Shown piece by piece: positions 17,382 to 63,251 of a stretch of 64,000 nucleotides of DNA (within the stretch, counting starts at the first letter, position 1; the number at the start of each line of letters is the position of its first letter). This DNA comes from Ceraceosorus guamensis (Eukaryota > Basidiomycota > Exobasidiomycetes > Ceraceosorales > Ceraceosoraceae), in NCBI RefSeq assembly GCF_003144195.1, contig NW_020290001.1:362717-426716 (forward strand), read 5' to 3'. The position numbers and the translations under genes are program-made. The notes beneath the pieces are model-generated. The model made no database searches, had not been told where the DNA came from, and saw only the letters and a program-made list of their open reading frames with translations.

Positions 17382-18942
17382 TTGCTCTCCCAAATTCGCA
17401 GCCACTCCCTCAGAACGATGTTCGAGCGATCCCTCTCTTCGCTCATCAAAGGGCTGCGCGCAAATGCGGCGCCTCTATCTGGGGCGACGCGGCAGCAACA
17501 GAGGAATGAAGCGCGATACGTGTCTCAGCAGCTGGATGAGATCAGGGTGGAGATGCGCAGCGAAGACCGAGCGGTCAAGGCAGAGGCGGTGCTGAAATTG
17601 TGCTACGTGAGTAGGTGGAGCGCAGGTCTTGATGGCTTTCGACCTCGAACGCTGAGACATGGCGTTGTGTGCTGCAGCTGCAAATGCTCGGACACACGTC
17701 TAGCGCACCAAACAGCTTCAACATGCTCGAGGTTATGAGCTCGCAGAAGCTTCACGAGAAGCAGATCGGCTACCTCGGTGCAAGCATGAGCTTCACGCCA
17801 GAGACCGACGTCCGGGTGCTGGTCACAAATCTGATGCAAAAGGTGCGGCGGGCTGAAGGGCTGTAGCTTCGCAGCTGCAATGTGGCATTCTGTTGCTCAT
17901 GCCGCCTCTCCTCTGGCGCAGGACTTGCACTCCGACAACCCAATAGAGGTCTCTATAGCTCTCAACGGATTGTCGCACCTCGCATCAGCCGAGCTCGTGC
18001 CTCACCTCCTGACCGACGTCCTGCATATCTTGCAAGACTCACCTCTACCTGCACTGCGAAAGCGCGCTCTGCTGTCTCTGCACGCTCTCATCGCGCACGA
18101 CGAGACCTCCTCCACTCTCGCCACCTCGTTGCCAGCTTTGCAAGAGGCACTACATGATGCTGATTCTGGCGTAGTTGGAGCAGCAGTCAACGTCATCACT
18201 GAGCTTTCTCACGCTCGACCAGAAGCCTTTTTGGAATACGCGCCAGACCTGTGCTCACTGCTCGAGACGCACACGAACAATTGGACGCTGATCAAGCTGC
18301 TCAAGCTTTTGGGCACTCTTGCCGCAGAGAGTAGCTCGGACGAGCTTGCTGGATTGCTTGCATCTCGGCTAGAGAGCTTCATCAGGACAACCAAAGCCAT
18401 GAGTCTGCTGTACGAAGCGCTTGTATGCGCTATAGAAGCTGGTTTGGTGGATGGCGAGGATCGACCAGGCGCGTCAAGCACCAGCGCGAGCTCTCCGGAC
18501 GCATTCAGAACGCTTTGTCTGTCCAAGTTGACAAGCATGCAATCGGGGACGGATGCCAATCTGCGCGTCATGGCGCATTCGGCACTGAGAAAATTGGAGA
18601 ACCGCAGCATGGGGCCTAGCAGAAAGAAGCTACCTACCAACGTGGAGGGCATGCTGATCGAGTTTGGCGAGACTGACAAAGAGCTGCTCGAAATCGCCGG
18701 AGAGCCTGCGAGAGGAGCAGATCGCTCGACGTCGGCTGCCATCGGTACCAGCAGCGCAGCTGCTAAACAGCCTTCAAACATCCCAGTGGCATCTTTGTTG
18801 GATGATGATGATCCCGAGCAGGTCGAGAGCTTCGCGGTGAGGGCACCACGAGGTCTGCAGTGTCAGACTGAGACTGACTGGAATTGACGCGACTCTACTT
18901 TTTCCGAATCCCACCTTGTAGCTGCATTCGCAAGGCAGATGA
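17382..18942 (+). CDS. APL5: AP-3 adaptor complex delta subunit, half-length
   Basis: AP-3 delta is a large subunit of the adaptor that sorts cargo from the Golgi or endosome to the vacuole. Four exons (17382-17606, 17678-17842, 17922-18836, 18922-18942) give 441 residues, or 429 from the second Met at 17418, where MFERSLSSLIKGLRA matches the usual AP-3 delta start. The match continues through DEIRVEMRS, KAEAVLKLCYLQMLG, LEVMSSQKLHEKQIGYLGA, NPIEVSIALNGLSHLAS, NNWTLIKLLKLLG and TTKAMSLLYEAL. It then fades into a Ser/Lys/Asp-rich tail ending near SLLDDDDPEQVESFA. Ordinary AP-3 delta is about twice this length; the second half of the solenoid and the hinge/ear are missing, and nothing downstream resembles them. 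Without the last splice the frame ends at 18887 instead. It is a truncated or paralogous delta; the symbol is by homology only. Confidence 0.82.
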
Positions 18943-22358: not shown

Positions 22359-23387
22359 TTAGCGGGACGGATTGATCCTTGGATCCAGCGCGGGAGAGGC
22401 ATCTTCCTGACCATGAAGACTCGGAAGAGGCGGGTAGGTCGGAGCAGATGGCCATTGCACGCTTTGCTGCCACTCCGCGACAGAGCCAGCAGAAGGTTGG
22501 TTCGAATGACCTGCAAAGCTACTGTACCGCATTCCCGCCGCGGGGTCGTGAGTGTTTGTGACGAAGCCGGAGGAGTTGAACGGATTCGAAGGGATGCCGC
22601 CAGCGGGACGTGGATCGTGAAAGGAGCCGGCATACGAAGCTGCGTTTTGACTCATTGGATGTTGTGCGAAGGTCGACTGGACAAAGGGAGGGATGCTGAG
22701 TCCTCTGAATGTGCTTGGATCTTGCAAAGTGTGATCTAGAGCCGCTTGAAGAGGAGGAGGAGGACGAGGAGGAGGAGGAGCAGGAGGAGGAGGAGGAGGA
22801 GCAACATCACTTTGCAGAGAGCGGCGCCTGTCCGCGTCGCGCTGGCGCTCGCGTTTGTTGCCGGAGTAGGAGCTGCTACCGACGCTACCTCTTCTTTTGG
22901 AGGGCTGCTTGGGCTGAGACTCGTCGTAGTGGCAATCGCGATTGCCGATGCGGCATTGTTTGCAGGGCAAGCCATCCTGGGAGCACTTGACTTTGCGCCT
23001 GCGACAAATCAGGCAGCCGGTCCGGCTGCGCTGAAACTTTTGTTTGCGATGCGTACCAGCACCGGAGGATGAGGATAAGGAAGCTTTGGCGTCGTCTCTC
23101 GTCCACTCTGGACCCGAATGCGGCAAGAAGGAGTGAAGCTGAGCATCTTGTGGGTGAGGTGGAACAGGCAGATCGGGTGCTTGCGGAGCCGCCAAGGCTG
23201 AGAAGGCATCGGAAGGTAGAGACATGGATAGATTGGGAGGCTTCCCCCCTCGCCGATCTGCCGCTGCCGCAGACGGCAGGGATGGAGGAGGCGCAACTTG
23301 TTCGGACGATCCGGCCGCGTAGCGAGAGGTCGAGTAAGGCGCGCGCGCCCCACGAGAGTTTTGATCCCAACGACTTGGCGTGCCCAT
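22359..23387 (-). CDS. Zn2Cys6 (GAL4-type) transcription factor
   Basis: A 342-residue single-exon fungal binuclear zinc-cluster regulator. The cluster at residues 125-152 has perfect spacing, C-X2-C-X6-C-X6-C-X2-C-X6-C (SRTGCLICRRRKVKC, SQDGLPCKQCRIGNRDC), preceded by basic residues and followed by QPKQPSKRRGS. A proline tract (PPPPPPAPPPPRPPPPL) at about residues 196-213 comes from a CCT/GGA repeat at 22749-22802. The rest is Ser/Pro/Gly rich and disordered-looking, with no fungal-specific TF middle-homology domain in this frame, so either the protein is a short form or a downstream exon is missed. The start Met at 23387 is the first in frame. Its targets cannot be predicted. Confidence 0.82.
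   Translation of the reverse strand: MGTPSRWDQNSRGARAPYSTSRYAAGSSEQVAPPPSLPSAAAADRRGGKPPNLSMSLPSDAFSALAAPQAPDLPVPPHPQDAQLHSFLPHSGPEWTRDDAKASLSSSSGAGTHRKQKFQRSRTGCLICRRRKVKCSQDGLPCKQCRIGNRDCHYDESQPKQPSKRRGSVGSSSYSGNKRERQRDADRRRSLQSDVAPPPPPPAPPPPRPPPPLQAALDHTLQDPSTFRGLSIPPFVQSTFAQHPMSQNAASYAGSFHDPRPAGGIPSNPFNSSGFVTNTHDPAAGMRYSSFAGHSNQPSAGSVAEWQQSVQWPSAPTYPPLPSLHGQEDASPALDPRINPSR
22749..22802. repeat. GGA/TCC triplet tract encoding polyproline
   Basis: A purine-rich imperfect GGA repeat on the plus strand. On the minus strand it is read as CCT codons and yields the proline-rich stretch of the Zn2Cys6 protein. Confidence 0.85.
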
Positions 23388-23459
23388 GTCTTGGCAGAGG
23401 AGAAGTGGTCTTAATCGAAACGTCGCTGCGCGCTAGGTGACCAAGTGAAGGAAGTAGGG

Positions 23460-25960: not shown

Positions 25961-27770
25961 ATGTCGCTCTTCCGCAGCGCAATCCGCGCGCCTCTTCGCG
26001 TCGCGGGACCTTCGTGCGGGGCCGCACCGGCAGCTCGACGTGGTCTCGCCACTGCTCGTGAGGAAAGGCCAGAGCAAGCGAATAGCCCTTGGGCCAAGTC
26101 CAGCCCTTCAGCCCCCACAACTGCTTCCCACACGGTCGAGGAGCTGCATGGACTAAGCATCGATGAGATTCTCAAAGAAGGAGGATCGCGAAAGGAAGCT
26201 AGTATGCGTCACTTTACCATCAACTTTGGGTGAGTTGAGCGGCCTTGCGTACGAGGGACACACCGCGACCTCACTAGCTGTATGTGCTGATGACGACCAT
26301 TCATCATGGTGCCACGAAGACCTCAACATCCCGCAGCGCACGGGGTGCTTCGGCTGATTGTGGAATTGAATGGCGAGCAGGTGCTCCGCGTGGATGTGAG
26401 TATTTCTTTCATGATGCGCTTTCCTGTCGATTCAAAATTCGGCATCTGACTCCTAAACCTTATCTCCAAACGTTCACCCGCAGCCCCACGTCGGCTTGTT
26501 GCACCGCGGCACAGAGAAGCTCATCGAGTACAAGAACTACACTCAGGCGCTTCCCTACTTCGACCGACTCGACTATGTCAGCATGATGACCAACGAGCTC
26601 TGCTACTCGCGAGCCGTCGAGAAGCTGCTCAACATCGAGGTTCCCGAAAGAGCGAAATGGATCAGGACGCTGTTTGGAGAGATCACCCGCATTCTCAACC
26701 ACTGCATGGCCGTCCTCTCGCACGTGATGGATGTCGGAGGTCTTACGCCATTCCTCTGGGCTTTCGAGGAGCGTGAAAAGCTGATGGAGTTCTACGAGCG
26801 AGTCTCTGGCGCACGTCTGCACGCGGCTTACGTGCGACCGGGAGGAGTGGCGTTCGATCTGCCACACGGTCTTCTGGACGACATTCACAAGTGGGCGACA
26901 CAATTCTCATCGAGAGTAGATGAGATCGAGGAGGTTGTCACTGGCAACCGTATCTGGAAGATGCGTACCATTGGCGTGGGCAAGGTGACCGCGCAGCAAG
27001 CTCTTGACTACGGCTTTTCTGGACCCATGCTTCGCGGTTCGGGAATTCCTTGGGACATTAGGAAAGTCGCCCCGTACGATGCGTACGACCAGGTGGAGTT
27101 TGACGTGCCAGTCGGCAAGAATGGTGACTGCTACGACAGATACCTCTGTCGCGTGGAAGAGTTCAGACAGAGCTTGCGCATCATCGAGCAGTGCTTGAAC
27201 AAGATGCCCGCTGGCCAGTACAAGGTGGACGACTACAAGATCGTGCCTCCTCCCCGTGCCACCATGAAGGAGAGCATGGAGGGTCTCATCGCCCACTTCA
27301 AGCAATTTTCTGAAGGATACAATGTTCCACCTGGCGAGACGTACTCGGCGATCGAAGCGCCAAAGGGGGAGATGGGTGTTTATCTCGTTTCGGACGGATC
27401 TAACAGGCCATACCGGTGCAAGATCAGAGCCCCAGGGTGAGTGCGCCGCGGTTCTTGCATTGCCGTCTTGACTAGTCTGATAGATTGTGCGGTCTTGTCT
27501 CAGATTCGCGCACTTGGCAGGAGCGAATATGATGTCTCAAGGGTTGCAGCTTGCAGATTTGTGTGCCATGTGAGTGTCCTGACGCTCGCAGCTATGAAAT
27601 CCGACTGACACTCGTTCGTCATCCTCTTGGTGACCACTCGCGCGTTTATAGCATTGGGGTGGGTGGCGCGCTTGGTGATGTTGCTTTTGCAAGTAGGGCT
27701 ACCTGCTGACCTTGCTATCTGCTACCTTTCGCAGACTCAAGATCTCGTGTTCGGCGAAGTTGACCGTTAG
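25961..27770 (+). CDS. NADH:ubiquinone oxidoreductase 49-kDa subunit (NDUFS2/Nuo49)
   Basis: This core subunit of mitochondrial complex I forms the quinone-binding pocket next to cluster N2. Six exons, 25961-26229, 26320-26395, 26484-27436, 27504-27569, 27652-27658 and 27735-27770, give 468 residues. The start has a GCCACC-ATG context and an Arg/Ala/Ser-rich mitochondrial presequence ([16 protein letters not shown]...). Invariant family blocks are [77 protein letters not shown] and the C-terminus [19 protein letters not shown]. The IIG of that C-terminus depends on a 7-nt exon (27652-27658, cattggg) flanked by AG and GT. Without it the frame is lost before the conserved end. Confidence 0.96.
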
Positions 27771-29287
27771 ATTGCGCCTTAGGTGCTCCCCACGCTCTCG
27801 CTGTGATGTTCCACATATTCTGATTGCAATCTTTTCTTTTGGCATCTGACGGCTTCTACGTGGCTGTCGTGATAGTGTTTCGACTTTGCGCTCGGATCTG
27901 TAAGCTTGTGTCGCTTACGCCATGCGATCAATCAGGCTGCCATTGTGTGTGACGCATCTGTCCTCTCCACTTTTCCGTGCGACGCACCACGACTGACCGG
28001 CAAGTCTGGAGCTACGTCACGTCACGTCAAGTCACGATTTGTCATTCACGCTTATCAATCACGAATGTGACGAGGTCATCTCTCAAGAGGCGTAGCAGTT
28101 GTCGACGACATTTACGCCAGTGTGGAAATTTGGGCGCTGAACGATCGAGTGGCTGAATCACGGGTAGAATGGTGCGCGTTCACGTTCGTGATTGTTTCGC
28201 CCGCGAGGTGGCGTGCTGGCAGTCCGGAATGAGGGCTTGAATCACTTGATCGTCGCTGAAAGTGAGACACGAATCTATGGTCGGTCCGATAGCATGCAAG
28301 TGTGCCTTGGGGTATATCCACCCGCTCACACTTGCTCCGAGAAGAGTGAGCCAGGCACTTCTAGTTCTTGTGAGCACGACAAGCTGCAGCTGCTTCATAC
28401 TGATGTGCAGTAGCTGCCGGCGATGCGTCGTATCGTCGGATCGGACAGTCGCGAGTTGTGAGTGCCCGCGTCGCGTTCTTGATTCTTGTCGTGCATGCTG
28501 CTTCGGACACTCACCGTTCTTTGCGTGGTGATGCGTCGGCGTGAAAGCTATAGGTGGATAGCCTGCAGCTGATGCAGGGCCTTTTGCCGCCATGATGGCG
28601 TGAATGTGAATGTGCCTGGCAAGCGCAATGACGAGCACGAAGAGACGCCTGGATCATCTGGAGGGGCCCCGGGGGTGCCGATTGGCCCACCGACGCGTGG
28701 CTTTGGGCTACGTGCATGCTGCTGAAAAGCAGAAGAGCATGCACAAACGGACCCCGGCCCGCATGTTATCGCGTTATGCGAGCGCATCGGCGCTAAGCCG
28801 AACAAAGCTTGCCTAGCTGCCATGCCGTCGTGGAGCAGCTCGCATGCAGCCGACTTCATTTTCGAGCTGCGTAAGAGCTGCGTAAAATAAAATAAGAAAG
28901 GCGGGGAAGTGCGTGTGGCCGTACAGCAGCAAAAGGGTAAGCGGTGCAGCGGACGGGGAGTGCCGGACTGCCTTCGCCGGTTAGCGTGGCCGGGCTGTGT
29001 GTGACGTGCTCGCTTGGAAGGTAATGATGATCACGAGAAGGGAGAAAAGCATGCTGGACCACAGCCAGCCTCCCGTAGCTGCGACGGGAGTGATGCGAAT
29101 GCAAAGACAGCAGCTTCAAAGTCGTCTTCACAGCCATCACATGACGCCGAAACGATAAGATCTCGACTACCCTTCCTGACCGAAGGCCTCAACTCCTTCT
29201 CGACCCACAACATCTGCTTGGAAAGTGACACATCCCCCGACGCCTCAGAGCGCACATCTTCTCCTTTCAAGACAGGCGACAAGCAGA
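27771..29287. other. 1.5-kb gene-free region with clustered TCACG words
   Basis: No coding exon with family resemblance is seen on either strand. Around 28014-28070 and 28155-28195 there are many TCACG/CGTGA words in both orientations, for example gtcacgtcacgtcaagtcac and aatcacgaatgtgacg. The right end should contain the promoter of the YCII-domain gene. Confidence 0.5.
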
Positions 29288-46923: not shown

Positions 46924-47650
46924 CTTTGTGGAGGCACGGCGCTCGGGGGATTCAGGTGTCTTCGCTCAGGTTTTGGCTTGTACTTGCACAGAGTCACTAG
47001 TGTAAAACGCTAGAGGAGAGCTCTGTTACCTGCCAACGAGTCCCGGTGATCAAAGAGAAGTGATGATGCAAAGCACAGTCGTCAGCAGTCACTCGAGGAT
47101 GCTGCCCCGCGTTTCCTGGCTGAGAAGAAGTCCAGAAAGGAGCGGAGCGTATGCTGCGTGCATGCAGCAGCAGCTGCTGCTAGCGCGCCTTGGGCAACTC
47201 GCAACATTCTTGATTCATGATTCCCCCGCGGCTTTTGTAGCAGCTCCGAGAGGGTCACGTGAAAAGTTGATGCAACCTCCTCTGGATCACGTGATTGAAT
47301 AGTCTTGGTGTGTGTATCGACACAACAATCGGCACGGCCCACCCACGCGACTCTGTGACCTGCGTGTGTCTGAGACACACACGACAGGCGAATAATCACG
47401 GAATGATGAAGATTCGTGATTCGTGGATCGCGCTGCATGCTACGAGCTGCTTTCTCGGCCTTATCGCCGGTCGCTGGTCGCTGCATGACCGCTGCCCACT
47501 CGTGACTGTGCGCTCGACTGCCTCGCAACGCGGTGCTCACACATCTTTGACTGGCTCACGCCCACTCTACATCTCTTGCTCACTTGCCATCTCTAGCTGA
47601 GCCCCCAAAGCGCTCTCTTCGCGCCTCTCACCCTCCCTCGTGCTCGTCGA
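46924..47650. promoter_or_regulatory. Divergent promoter: MSC7-like (-) / aminopeptidase (+)
   Basis: A 727-bp shared upstream region. It holds a doubled aagattcgtgattcgtgg (about 47408-47426), cactcgtgactgtg, and two gatcacgtga/ggtcacgtga palindromes (47256-47263 and 47286-47293 approximately). CACGTG/TCACGTGA is the core for bHLH factors such as Cbf1. The regulatory meaning is inferred. Confidence 0.4.
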
Positions 47651-49916
47651 ATGTCCGCTCGCATCGCTGTGCGTCAACAGCCGTCTGCACTGCGTTCATC
47701 ACTTCGGTCAACACTTGGCCGCCAATTCTCGTCTTGCTCGCCAAAGCCCACAGCTAGTCTGCCCTTCGCAGTGCCAAATCGATTCCAGAAAATTGGCGCC
47801 TTTGAGCAGACCCTTCTCTCACCATCGTCCTCATTCTCTACCAGCAGCAGGATGAGCGCCTCCTCTTGGGTCCCTCCCGCTCCGGGCAGCATCCCACCTC
47901 CACCCAGACCTCCTTTCACTGATCAGCACACGCTCAGCAACCTGGCAGACATTCGCACGCTGAACCTTCATCTGGAATGGCAAGTGGATTGGGAAGCCAA
48001 ACTCATCTCTGGCAGTGCTGCCCACGAGCTGGAGGTGATTGGGGAGAAGGGAACGGATAAATTGGTGCTGGATACCAGCTACATCGACATTCACAAGGTG
48101 GAGGTGGAAGGGAAGGAGACGAGGGATTGGCACCTGGCTCCGCGCAAAGGCTCGCTGGGAGCTGCGCTGACCGTACCGCTTGGCAAAGTGTGGAGCAAAG
48201 GAAGCAAGGGCAGGGTGGTGGTGCACTACAGCACCACGGATCAATGCACCGCTCTCGGCTGGCTCACCGCCGCTCAGACCGAAGGCAAGAAGAGCCCTTT
48301 GGTCTTTTCTCAGGCTCAAGCAATCCACGCCAGATCCCTCGTGCCCATCCAAGACACTCCGAGCCACAAAATCAAGTATACTGCGAGAGTCAAATCCAAG
48401 ATCCCAATCCTCATGTCCGCCTTGCCTGCTGGCTCCGTTCAGGCGTCCGAGGATCACCCTGGAGACCCCCTGGCTGCAGAGAGCCAAGGCTTGTCAGACG
48501 ATGAGGAGAAATACTACGTATTCAAGCAGCCCGTTGGCATCCCTTCGTATCTCATTGGTATTGTAGGTGGAGACTTTGTCTTCAGGTCGCTTGGGCCCCG
48601 CTGCGGAGTATGGGCTGAGCCTCCCATGGCGGATCGAGCAGAGTGGGAGTTCAAATCCACGACGCACAAATACCTCTTGGCAGCTGAAGAGCTCATCTCT
48701 CCCTACTCGTGGACGCGATTCGACAGCGTGGTGCTGCCTCCCAGCTTTCCTTACGGCGGAATGGAACAGCCCAACCTGGTCTTGCTCACGCCTACGCTCG
48801 TATGCGGAGACAGATCGCAATGCGACGTCGTTCTACACGAACTTTCCCACTTTTGGAGCGGCAACTTGACAAGCTGCGCTACGTGGGCAGACTTTTGGCT
48901 GAATGAGGGCATCAATGTGTGGATCGAGCGTCTCATCCTGCAAAAGATACACGGGCCGGAAGTCGGTCCTGCTTATCGCGGCCTCAGGTGAGTGAGAGCT
49001 CGCGGGGTCCTAATTGCATGTGGTGCTGCGTCGCGGTCACATCGCTGAGACGGCTTTCACTCTTCGCGCGTGTTTCATCAGCTACCTCATCGGCGAGAAG
49101 GAACTCGGAGGCGCCTATAAGGAGTTTGATGCCACCCCACGATTCAAGCGACTGGTTCCCAAATATTCTGGCAATGAGGATCCGGACGACGCATTCTCGC
49201 GCATTCCCTACGAAGCAGGCTCTAACCTCATCCTCTACCTGGAAAGGCTGGTGGGAGGTCTGGACATTTTTATTCCTTTCATCCGATCCTGGTTCGCAAC
49301 ATTTTACGATCGATCGGTCACCACTGGCGAGTTTAGGCAACACCTTGCGGACTTTTTTGCGGGCAACGAGCACGTGACGGACAAGCTGAAAGAGGTGGAT
49401 TGGGATGCCTGGCTCAACAGCGAGAGCGGCAAATTGCCTGTCCAACAGACCTACGACGATCGATTCGCCAAGCAGTCGTACGCGCTTGCGGACAGGTGGC
49501 TCAAGGTGATCAAGGAGGGCGGCAAAGCGGAGGGCTTCAGCAAAAAGGACATCGAGGGATGGTCTGTGGATCAACAGGTCGTCTTTCTGGAGCAGCTGCA
49601 CCTCGGACCCAAAGTCAAAGCGTCCATTGCCGAACAGCTGGACCAGACGTATCAATTTAGCCAAGCACAATGTGGGGAAATCCTCCTCTCCTTCTTCGTC
49701 ATCGCTTTGGAAGATCCAGCGACGAAGTATGCAAAGCAATGCGCAGAATGGGTCAAAACGGTTGGCAGGATGAAGTATGCCAGGCAGCTCTACAGAGCTC
49801 TGTACGCCGTCGATCCCGACTTTGCGCGAAAGACCTTCGAGGAGTCCAAGAGCTTCTACCACCCAATTTGCCGGAACCTGCTTAGACAAGATCTCAAGCT
49901 TGCACCTGTAGCATGA
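47651..49916 (+). CDS. LAP2: M1 aminopeptidase / leukotriene A4 hydrolase homologue
   Basis: A zinc metallopeptidase of the M1 family, LTA4-hydrolase branch; yeast Lap2 cleaves N-terminal residues and has epoxide hydrolase activity. Two exons (47651-48987, 49082-49916) give 723 residues. The first about 65 residues form a Ser/Arg-rich presequence, followed by Met68 (MSASSWVPPAPGS), where cytosolic homologues begin. The substrate motif GxMEN reads PYGGMEQP (Gln for Asn). The zinc site is VVLHELSHFWSGN with the third ligand in FWLNEGINVWIE, the proper HEXXH-X18-E arrangement. Tyr of the IPYEAGSNLILYLE motif is the catalytic tyrosine. The C-terminal helical domain (from about residue 560) matches LTA4H. 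Two in-frame starts suggest mitochondrial and cytosolic forms from one gene. Confidence 0.93.
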
Positions 49917-59984: not shown

Positions 59985-61505
59985 TCATCGAACAGCCGCG
60001 ACGAATGATTGAGGAGTGTCGAGTCCAGTCGTGAGCTGAGACGCAGATGTGCGAGGCATCTTCATCGAGGCGGCAACGTGGTTCTGGGGCGCCACGACGA
60101 CGTCGCCCATAGCAGTAGCCATCGCTCTTGCTTCTTCTTCAGCTTCCAGACCCAGCGGACCCGCATCGCCAGCAGCGGTGGCGCAGCCAAGTGGGTCTTG
60201 AAGAGGTGCCTCTCCCTTCAGAATACTGGCGCTGGTGGCCCACATTCGGGCTTGCGCCAAACCTTGCTCGATCATTGCCTCGACTCCACAGATGGGCGAC
60301 CAAGCCGATGCAGACGGTTGACTGGCAGCATACGCCAGCAGCGGTGTCACGCGCGGCTTGTAGCACATCTCGAGGAATGGTCGAGCGGATGGAAGCGGGA
60401 AGCGCTGAATTGTCGAACTTGTCTCCACGTTCGCCTGGACGTTGGCGTGTGCGCCGAGGCCCGGGCGGTATTCGCTCTCGAAGAACATGTGTGCCAGATT
60501 GTAGACCATCTTCTCATCTGCTGACTGTGGCGCCATGCTGGGAATGGCGCCGATGGTGCAAGCTAGCTGGCCGGTCTCTCCAGTCTCCCTCCTGACGGCT
60601 TCCTCTTGCCAGGCTTGCTCGGAGCGTAGAGGTCTGAGATCCAAGTTCAATCCTCGCTGGTCGAAGTACTGCACGACGTTGGCAGTCTCTGCGGCATCTC
60701 GATTGAGCAGGTAGAGCGGCGACAAGCCAAGTTGATGCGCAGCCCACACAGCGGAGCGGCACGTACCGCCGCTTCCGATGATGAGGGCGCTGTGCTTCAG
60801 GCCTTCTCTGCGACCGTCCAGCGGAAATTGATAGGTGGCCGAAGCGCGCATGTAGAAGCTGGGATCGAGACCATGTTGCGTGGCGACGTTGCGAAGGATC
60901 GCGTGTCTAATGCCCAGGTAGTCGGTGTTTGTGCCGATCATTCTTCGATCTTCGAGGCGAGTGGAGCCAGACTGAGAAGGGTAGACGACGATCGTATTGA
61001 CCGTACCAGTCGCTTGAGCAATGGCATCGAGCTCGTCCAGAATGTGCTCCTTGCCGAGTTGGGCAGCGACAGCCACCTTGAGAGGCATGGTGACGGCACT
61101 TCCGCCAAACCTCTCGTCTTCGCGCACGTAACGTCGCATGTGCTTCTCATCGATGCTGCGCGTCTCGCACAGGCTGTACGTTGGGAAAGGCCCTTCGTTG
61201 GAACAGTCACCCTTGCGTAGAGAGCTGCGCTGCATCAAAAGGTTTTGAAATGCAGGAGACGCTGAATGCGAGATCGGATAACCGAAAAGACGATGTCTTC
61301 TGGGAGAAGCTTCGATCTCTTGCAAGGTTGGATGAGCGGGAGGTGCGAGGGCCAAAGTGGAGGGGCCTGCTTGCTCAGTGCTCGACTCGACGGCGACGTC
61401 AAGCATGGTGCTGTTTGCTACGGGTGCCATGTTGAGAGAAGTCTTCGATGAAAGAATTGGAAATGGGAATGAGCTGGCTTGAATATGCGGCAGTGCGAAG
61501 GACAA
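59985..61505 (-). CDS. Quinate/shikimate dehydrogenase-like protein
   Basis: A fungal dehydrogenase of the quinate/shikimate family (QutB/qa-3 branch, distinct from the AROM domain), which oxidises quinate or shikimate to the 3-dehydro acid. The single exon encodes 506 residues; Met26 (61430) is an equally good start. Substrate-lobe motif LFGYPISHSASPAFQN is at residues 73-88, AVTMPLK with the catalytic Lys at 143, TGTVNTIVV at 166-174, and MIGTNTDYLGI with the catalytic Asp at 195. The nucleotide-binding loop is LIIGSGGTCRSAVWAA at about 241-256, followed by LYLLNRDAAET. EMCYKPRVTPLL and GVEAMIEQGLAQ close the domain. The C-terminal about 90 residues are an Ala/Met-rich extension. The divergent neighbour is a quinate-permease-like transporter, which supports quinate rather than biosynthetic use. 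It could alternatively be a QutR-like regulator relic, but catalytic residues are intact. Confidence 0.87.
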   Translation of the reverse strand: MSFALPHIQASSFPFPILSSKTSLNMAPVANSTMLDVAVESSTEQAGPSTLALAPPAHPTLQEIEASPRRHRLFGYPISHSASPAFQNLLMQRSSLRKGDCSNEGPFPTYSLCETRSIDEKHMRRYVREDERFGGSAVTMPLKVAVAAQLGKEHILDELDAIAQATGTVNTIVVYPSQSGSTRLEDRRMIGTNTDYLGIRHAILRNVATQHGLDPSFYMRASATYQFPLDGRREGLKHSALIIGSGGTCRSAVWAAHQLGLSPLYLLNRDAAETANVVQYFDQRGLNLDLRPLRSEQAWQEEAVRRETGETGQLACTIGAIPSMAPQSADEKMVYNLAHMFFESEYRPGLGAHANVQANVETSSTIQRFPLPSARPFLEMCYKPRVTPLLAYAASQPSASAWSPICGVEAMIEQGLAQARMWATSASILKGEAPLQDPLGCATAAGDAGPLGLEAEEEARAMATAMGDVVVAPQNHVAASMKMPRTSASQLTTGLDTPQSFVAAVR

Positions 61506-63251
61506 GATCGAACTGGAATGGATTGCTGAGGTGTGAGCTACGACCAGCTGGCCTTTTTAGGGACGCAACCATCAATCACGAATGGCAAGAGGCTTCGTGG
61601 TGCGCTTTCACCGCACACGACCATTTCGGGGCCTGCTGCGTGCACGATCATGCAGGATGGCGACGCTAACTTGCGCGCACCTGTTGTGAAGCCCATTCTT
61701 CCGGCGCGCTGCCTACGTACCCCTTCCCTTTACACCGCCATTCCCCTCCATATTCACCATTCGCTGCGTTTCGATTCGTCAGGACGCAAGACCACACGTC
61801 AGCGATTTCGAACGTCTTCATCGCTCGCACTGGTCGCTCTGCCAAGGAATGTGGAGAACGGCACGTAAATGATCCTGAATGACGCTTCGCCTTGTCGTCA
61901 CAGCCGTCAGCGATGACCGTTGGGAAGAGTGGTCTGGTGCTGGTCCTGGTAACGTTTACCCCTCCGGCTGATAGTTTCTCCGCTTTCCCAGCTTGGAGCT
62001 CTCCACGTGGCTCTGTCGATTCCATCTGCCCAGAATTGCATCCAACACCCTTGCAGCTGCAGTGCCACCCTTTCCCGCAGTCCAAATCGCGACCTCACAC
62101 AACTCGACAAGCGTTGGCCAAGCACGGTGCTCGGATGAACGCTCACGGATTGTGACAACAGCACCGGCTGCTTGGCGAGTCATGGCCCTGGCCGAGACCT
62201 GCAGCATCGAATCCGGCGCAAATCGTGAATGTCTTGCAGCATGCGTAGCCAGCACAGTGTCGCTTGATGATTGCCGCAGACCTGGTCTTCATGCAGCTGC
62301 AGGCACTGCTGGGCTGCATGGCGTGCGCGCGAAACAAGTCGTGAGTGTGGGGTTGGTTCCGTTCGGCAAATTCAAGAAGTTTTGGTTCCTGGGCATCGCG
62401 CCTGTCTCAGTCACGAAGCTCCTTGCCGCCTTTGCCGTTTGGAACGGCGCCACAGGCAACCCGAGACTAGGAAAGTGGCTGCATGTTTCTGCGCTCACAT
62501 TACCTGCACCAATTCCTTCGATTCCTCCGCAGTGGCTCCTGCCGCGGAGGCAGGCTGGTGCCTCAACACGCGCTGGGCTGCGCTGAATCGCCTAGCCCTT
62601 TGCTCACGACGGCCCTCTTCGCTTCCTCAGGCTTGCCGCCCTCGCCGCGCTCAACCGGAAGAATGGGACTGCAAACTGGCGCAAATCCCCTGGATTTTGA
62701 CAGCCATCCCGCACTCAAGAGCGCTTTCTCTGGGACTGACGTAAAACCCAATGAAGCAGCCCCCAACGCGATCCAAGTAGAGAGGACATCTGAATGACTT
62801 CTGAAGTCCAAGCCACGGCTCACAGCAGACGCGGCAGCGCCACTCGATCGGCCCAACAGCGGCCGCTCGCTGCTCGACCCGCCCCGATTTTTGCAACGGC
62901 TCCGCTGCGCTGGTCTCGCAGGAACTGGCTGGAGCGACCGGAGCGAAGTTCTTCCCTTGCTTCTCTCACCACTCACAGTCACTGCCAACTGGCCTGATTC
63001 AGATTGGGGAGGAACGACATCGTACAGACCACTGTATCGACGTTTCACTGTATCCAATCAGGTGGCTCACTTACCCCGTGGGGAATACATTTGCAACCGC
63101 TGTCATCTTTAAGAAGGCAGTCCGGGGCTCCACATTCCGTTCTTCCCTCCTCATCAAGCAATTCGGCTTCCACTTCTCCACTTCTCTTCTCAGCCTTCTC
63201 CGGCCTCGACAATCTTCACCCACCCTCTTCGCCCACACCCCACGTCACAAG
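61506..63251. promoter_or_regulatory. 1.75-kb divergent promoter of the dehydrogenase/permease pair
   Basis: The start codons of the quinate dehydrogenase-like gene and the permease lie at its two ends. No coding exon is recognised inside; the frame at 61993-62586 lacks any domain. A few tcacgaatgg and aatcgtgaatg words are present (61576-61586, 62222-62232). The pyrimidine-rich stretch at 63150-63245 is the likely permease leader. Confidence 0.5.

Follow-up and report, generated by a model that had tools for sequence, protein, structure and literature searches.

A predicted seven-nucleotide coding microexon in the gene for the complex I 49-kDa subunit of Ceraceosorus guamensis

Analysis of a 64,000-nucleotide stretch of Ceraceosorus guamensis DNA (the window, to which all positions refer) indicates, with a probability of about 0.95, that nucleotides 27652–27658 constitute a constitutive coding microexon, seven nucleotides long, in the nuclear gene that encodes the 49-kDa subunit of complex I. 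The exon, its coordinates, its frame and its role in the conserved tail of the protein had been proposed in a sequence-only reading of the window, and all of these hold in the light of translation, enumeration of splice models, shuffled sequences and the identical tail of a Ceraceosorus bombacis protein. The gene (NDUFS2/NUCM; 25961–27770, forward strand) consists of six coding exons (Table 1), which, when joined, amount to 1,407 nt and encode 468 aa followed by a stop codon. The Complex1_49kDa profile (PF00346) was matched with 406.4 bits (cut-off 24) over positions 1–271 of its 271, and three PDB alignments pass through the C-terminus, where they are free of gaps. When the best-matching protein (P0001, see below) was searched against the fungus's own genome (23,826,002 bases, 199 contigs) at E values up to 10, four matches were obtained, all of them exons at this locus, with no second locus among the best-scoring candidates. 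The first intron of the gene (26230–26319) ends in AAG, as opposed to the common CAG.

Table 1. Exons and 3' introns of the gene for the complex I 49-kDa subunit.
Feature	Position	Strand	Basis
Coding exon 1 (starts with ATG)	25961–26229	+	joined translation; match to P0001
Coding exon 2	26320–26395	+	joined translation
Coding exon 3 (bulk of the conserved domain)	26484–27436	+	joined translation; profile match; match to P0001
Coding exon 4 (ends with ADLCA + AT)	27504–27569	+	joined translation; match to P0001
Intron 4 (82 nt; GTGAGT...TATAG)	27570–27651	+	joined translation
Exon 5 (predicted 7-nt microexon, CATTGGG)	27652–27658	+	translation; splice enumeration; shuffles
Intron 5 (76 nt; GTGGGT...CTGAC (27706)...CGCAG)	27659–27734	+	translation; genome template match
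Coding exon 6 (last 11 residues and stop)	27735–27770	+	joined translation

The sequence around the microexon reads GTTTATAG/CATTGGG/GTGGGT. Exon 4 closes with GCC AT in front of its GTGAGT donor, while exon 6, behind the CGCAG acceptor, opens in frame with ACT CAA; since the former ends in an unfinished codon and the latter starts in frame, the length of any bridging piece must be a multiple of three plus one. CATTGGG supplies the third base of one isoleucine codon, followed by isoleucine and glycine (AT + C ATT GGG), thereby restoring the reading frame across exons 4, 5 and 6 and fixing the one in which the final 11 residues are read. The conserved tail, [IVL][IVL]GT.D.VFGEVDR, was obtained only when these seven bases were included. 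At 7 nt, with an intron of the AG/GT type on either side (acceptor TATAG, donor GTGGGT), the exon falls within the limit of 15 nt applied to microexons; its length is not divisible by three, whereas switch-like microexons usually, though not necessarily, have lengths that are.

The best protein match, annotated as nadh-ubiquinone oxidoreductase [Ceraceosorus bombacis] (P0001), is identical at 465 of 468 residues, the tail included, and the differences, at positions 55, 269 and 320, all lie away from the microexon. Among the homologues considered (the best 120 of 7,999 scored candidates), the intact tail [IVL][IVL]G[TS].D.VFGEV[DN]R was present in 84 and absent in 36. When the first two residues of the tail were left free, 85 of the 120 matched, comprising 76 with IIGT, five with VIGT, two with LIGT and one each with IVGT and GTGT, the last belonging to P0044, an apparently bad model. 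The IIG that had been called universal is thus strongly predominant but not strictly so. Within the 36 defective models, 16 keep the core and fail or stop around VFG, and five fail right after IIGTM. These failures agree in part with the earlier assertion that gene predictors routinely miss such exons, but the public C. bombacis protein is correct, so that the exon has been captured in that species; the gene model behind that protein may itself have been built by homology. The conserved C-terminal tail presumably lines the quinone pocket; the literature passages searched contained nothing usable on the role of these C-terminal residues.

A break or stop after IIGTM or VFG was seen in the fungal 49-kDa models P0038, P0041, P0042, P0047, P0051, P0052, P0056, P0057 and P0060, and likewise in P0064, P0067, P0086, P0089, P0094, P0103, P0117 and P0120. 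Judged by name, these broken models are mostly from Agaricomycetes, and their appearance would fit the mishandling of a tiny DLVFG exon together with a short terminal one. The protein models thus suggest that other basidiomycetes also split the 49-kDa tail into very short exons with which predictors cope poorly.

The splice sites flanking the microexon were compared with those of the genome at large. In genome-wide counts of splice templates, for which the reversed pattern served as control and which represent rates rather than numbers of introns since one intron may match repeatedly, GTGAGT..CTGAC..CAG was found 1,852 times (control, 306), GTGGGT..CTGAC..CAG 252 times (control, 175) and GTGAGT..CTGAC..TAG 484 times (control, 346). 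By excess over control, GTGGGT reaches approximately 5% of GTGAGT, and TAG approximately 9% of CAG. The acceptor TATAG and donor GTGGGT of the microexon are therefore minority types, while the outer donor GTGAGT and outer acceptor CGCAG are common types. Intron 5 fits the donor-CTGAC-CAG template and is present among the template matches. Intron 4 is off template, having no CTGAC at the usual spacing of 6–30 nt; it carries a CTGAC at 27605, with the branch A 43 nt from the intron end and no other AG between, such that the microexon acceptor is the first AG downstream, and a GTGAC at 27630, 18 nt from the acceptor. Additionally, a small codon-based de novo set of introns gave a weak indication in the same matter, with G at +4 in none of 34 donors and TAG in one of 33 acceptors; these totals apply to the loosest threshold and fall to two and two at the next and to none at the strictest. 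This set recovered none of the 49-kDa gene's own introns. A hexamer-based set yielded only 21 noisy candidates and was discarded.

The minority inner sites and the spacing in intron 4 were counted as points against constitutive inclusion. The inner sites, set against the common outer ones, also lend some weight to the possibility that the microexon is genuine yet subject to alternative splicing, being skipped in part of the transcripts by way of the common outer sites (GTGAGT at 27570 and CTGAC..CGCAG ending at 27734), or left behind with intron 4 retained, so as to tune the amount of working complex I. An exon of seven bases has no in-frame skip, and either event destroys the tail: by conceptual translation, skipping leads to a frameshifted protein of 492 aa, the last 37 of which are unrelated (stop at 27847–27849) and which loses the conserved C-terminus, while retention of intron 4 brings in a stop codon at 27571–27573, where translation ends at once. 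However, nearly all intact homologues conserve the residues that skipping would remove, a point in favour of constitutive inclusion, and some skipping noise is to be expected even where there is no regulation. We therefore regard alternative splicing as unlikely. Because minority sites flank the microexon while the outer sites are of common types, the exon might even be a deliberate weak link, its inclusion weighed against a frameshifted tail allowing the cell to set the level of functional complex I, although we consider this idea decidedly unlikely.

To return to the constitutive microexon, its place among all conceivable splice models was evaluated by enumerating GT or GC donors and AG acceptors in 27504–27773, the minimum intron length being set to 40 nt. 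The motif [IVL][IVL]G[TS] occurred in none of the 235 one-intron models of this region, and the idea that IIG might arise by simply extending exon 4 or exon 6 was consequently rejected. VFGEVDR was reached in frame by nine of these models and by 471 of the 3,439 two-intron models; the motif was present in two of the latter, both running through 27652–27658, one of which loses 12 residues through the use of a GTCTCA donor at 27534. Across both sets of models, it is the microexon that restores the frame together with the conserved residues. With the outer sites fixed, five models remain in frame, all starting from 27652. The contention that cattggg alone would serve is accordingly borne out for fixed outer sites and a tail free of inserted residues; in its unrestricted form it goes too far, as the four longer exons also keep IIG.

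These longer exons, of 16, 28, 31 or 37 nt (donors GCGCTT, GTTGCT, GCTTTT or GCAAGT), would insert 3, 7, 8 or 10 residues after IIG. GCAAGT does resemble a usable GC donor, but three of the four depend on GC donors and the fourth on a poor GT, the insertion is absent from the C. bombacis protein, and among the 120 homologues, the best of 7,999 scored candidates, a pattern of this kind occurs only in P0044, the seemingly bad model. The use of a longer exon is hence highly improbable.

The match to the microexon exceeds chance. Among 20,000 dinucleotide-shuffled versions of the 165-nt gap between exons 4 and 6, the arrangement AG/HATHGGN/GT arose within the allowed interior in 10 and its looser I[IVL]G version in 66; the strict motif has three occurrences, the microexon included, on both strands of the window and a further 200 kb (528,000 bases). 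That the match is nevertheless fortuitous and the true tail different, formed for example by a single intron joining a donor within exon 4 to 27735 or to a different acceptor (as in the model joining ADLC to TQDL from a GCCATG donor at 27565), carries very little probability, since all nine one-intron models reaching VFGEVDR rely on GC or GTGCCA donors and lack IIG, the shuffles place the probability of chance at about 0.0005 to 0.003, and IIG is present in C. bombacis.

If the microexon is spliced as proposed, its flanking introns, being short, would each be recognised as a unit of their own (intron definition). Complexes bound to the acceptor and to the donor would not fit together on seven bases, and introns 4 and 5 are thus probably excised successively, a model that has been put forward for plant microexons (PMC8831610). 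Our guess is that intron 4 would be excised first, its donor being the common GTGAGT, and that the joined exon of 73 nt would then be spliced from GTGGGT. By analogy with the plant microexons, the order may instead be downstream-first: where reads of all three types were available, splicing of the downstream intron was greater in 32 of 49 cases (PMC8831610). Recursive-splicing (RS) exons (PMC6224609) are alike in that removal of the upstream intron leaves a usable donor adjoining the new junction, and unlike in that the seven bases of the 49-kDa gene are coding and must stay.

Exons of this size have precedents. In plants, microexons of 1–15 nt have been described, among them conserved exons of 1 nt in APC11 and VPS55 (PMC8831610); these share with the present case a tiny coding exon flanked by two introns, a conserved protein context, frequent absence from annotation and the proposed consecutive removal of the introns, while ours differs in belonging to a fungal gene with short introns and in being predicted from sequence. 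Microexons also occur in the P450 genes of Phanerochaete chrysosporium, the shortest exon being 6 bp (PMC1184071); here too a basidiomycete has coding exons of a few codons and short introns, but these genes are members of a gene family and the 6-bp exon belongs to predicted gene structures, whereas the 49-kDa gene is a single-copy respiratory gene with an exon length indivisible by three. In Trichoderma, Xlr2 contains a 20-nt microexon, missing from the gene model, which resembles ours in being fungal, in having a length indivisible by three (microexons are usually multiples of three) and in that its absence destroys a conserved domain; Xlr2 is, however, an ascomycete regulator whose condition dependence was shown by RNA-seq (PMC11121469). 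In the open literature on microexons in Ustilago and basidiomycete introns, as represented by titles and the beginnings of abstracts with subscription papers mostly outside, no report on the 49-kDa gene was found.

Tiny exons are thus already known in a basidiomycete, in Trichoderma and in plants, and the correct tail is already contained in the public C. bombacis protein; the microexon opens no long-standing question. It would, however, make a clean example of how a gene at the core of respiration, in a fungus whose introns are short, can depend on an exon of 7 nt. The proportion of homologue models without an intact tail (36 of the best 120 of 7,999) indicates that C-terminal gene models of the 49-kDa subunit merit checking.

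A genome-wide estimate of tiny exons was also attempted with the template CTGAC..CAG-N-GTGAGT, counted against its reversed form for bins of 1–15, 16–30 and 46–60 nt (31–45 nt was left out). The counts were 206 versus 143, 219 versus 150 and 239 versus 158, respectively; the 1–15 nt bin is rich in CAGTCGTGAGT-like copies among the matches listed, for which reason no conclusion on the frequency of tiny exons was drawn. The CAGTCGTGAGT-like string recurs on many contigs among those matches, inflating motif counts for very short exons, and probably derives from common TCACGACT-type repeats of the fungus.

Elsewhere in the window, which holds 94 open reading frames of at least 150 aa, four of the ten long ones tried gave Pfam matches: 17835–18887 (+), 22359–23432 (-), 47597–48991 (+) and 59985–61556 (-), which correspond, in this order, to an adaptin N-terminal region, a fungal Zn2Cys6 cluster, a peptidase M1 and a shikimate dehydrogenase substrate-binding domain.
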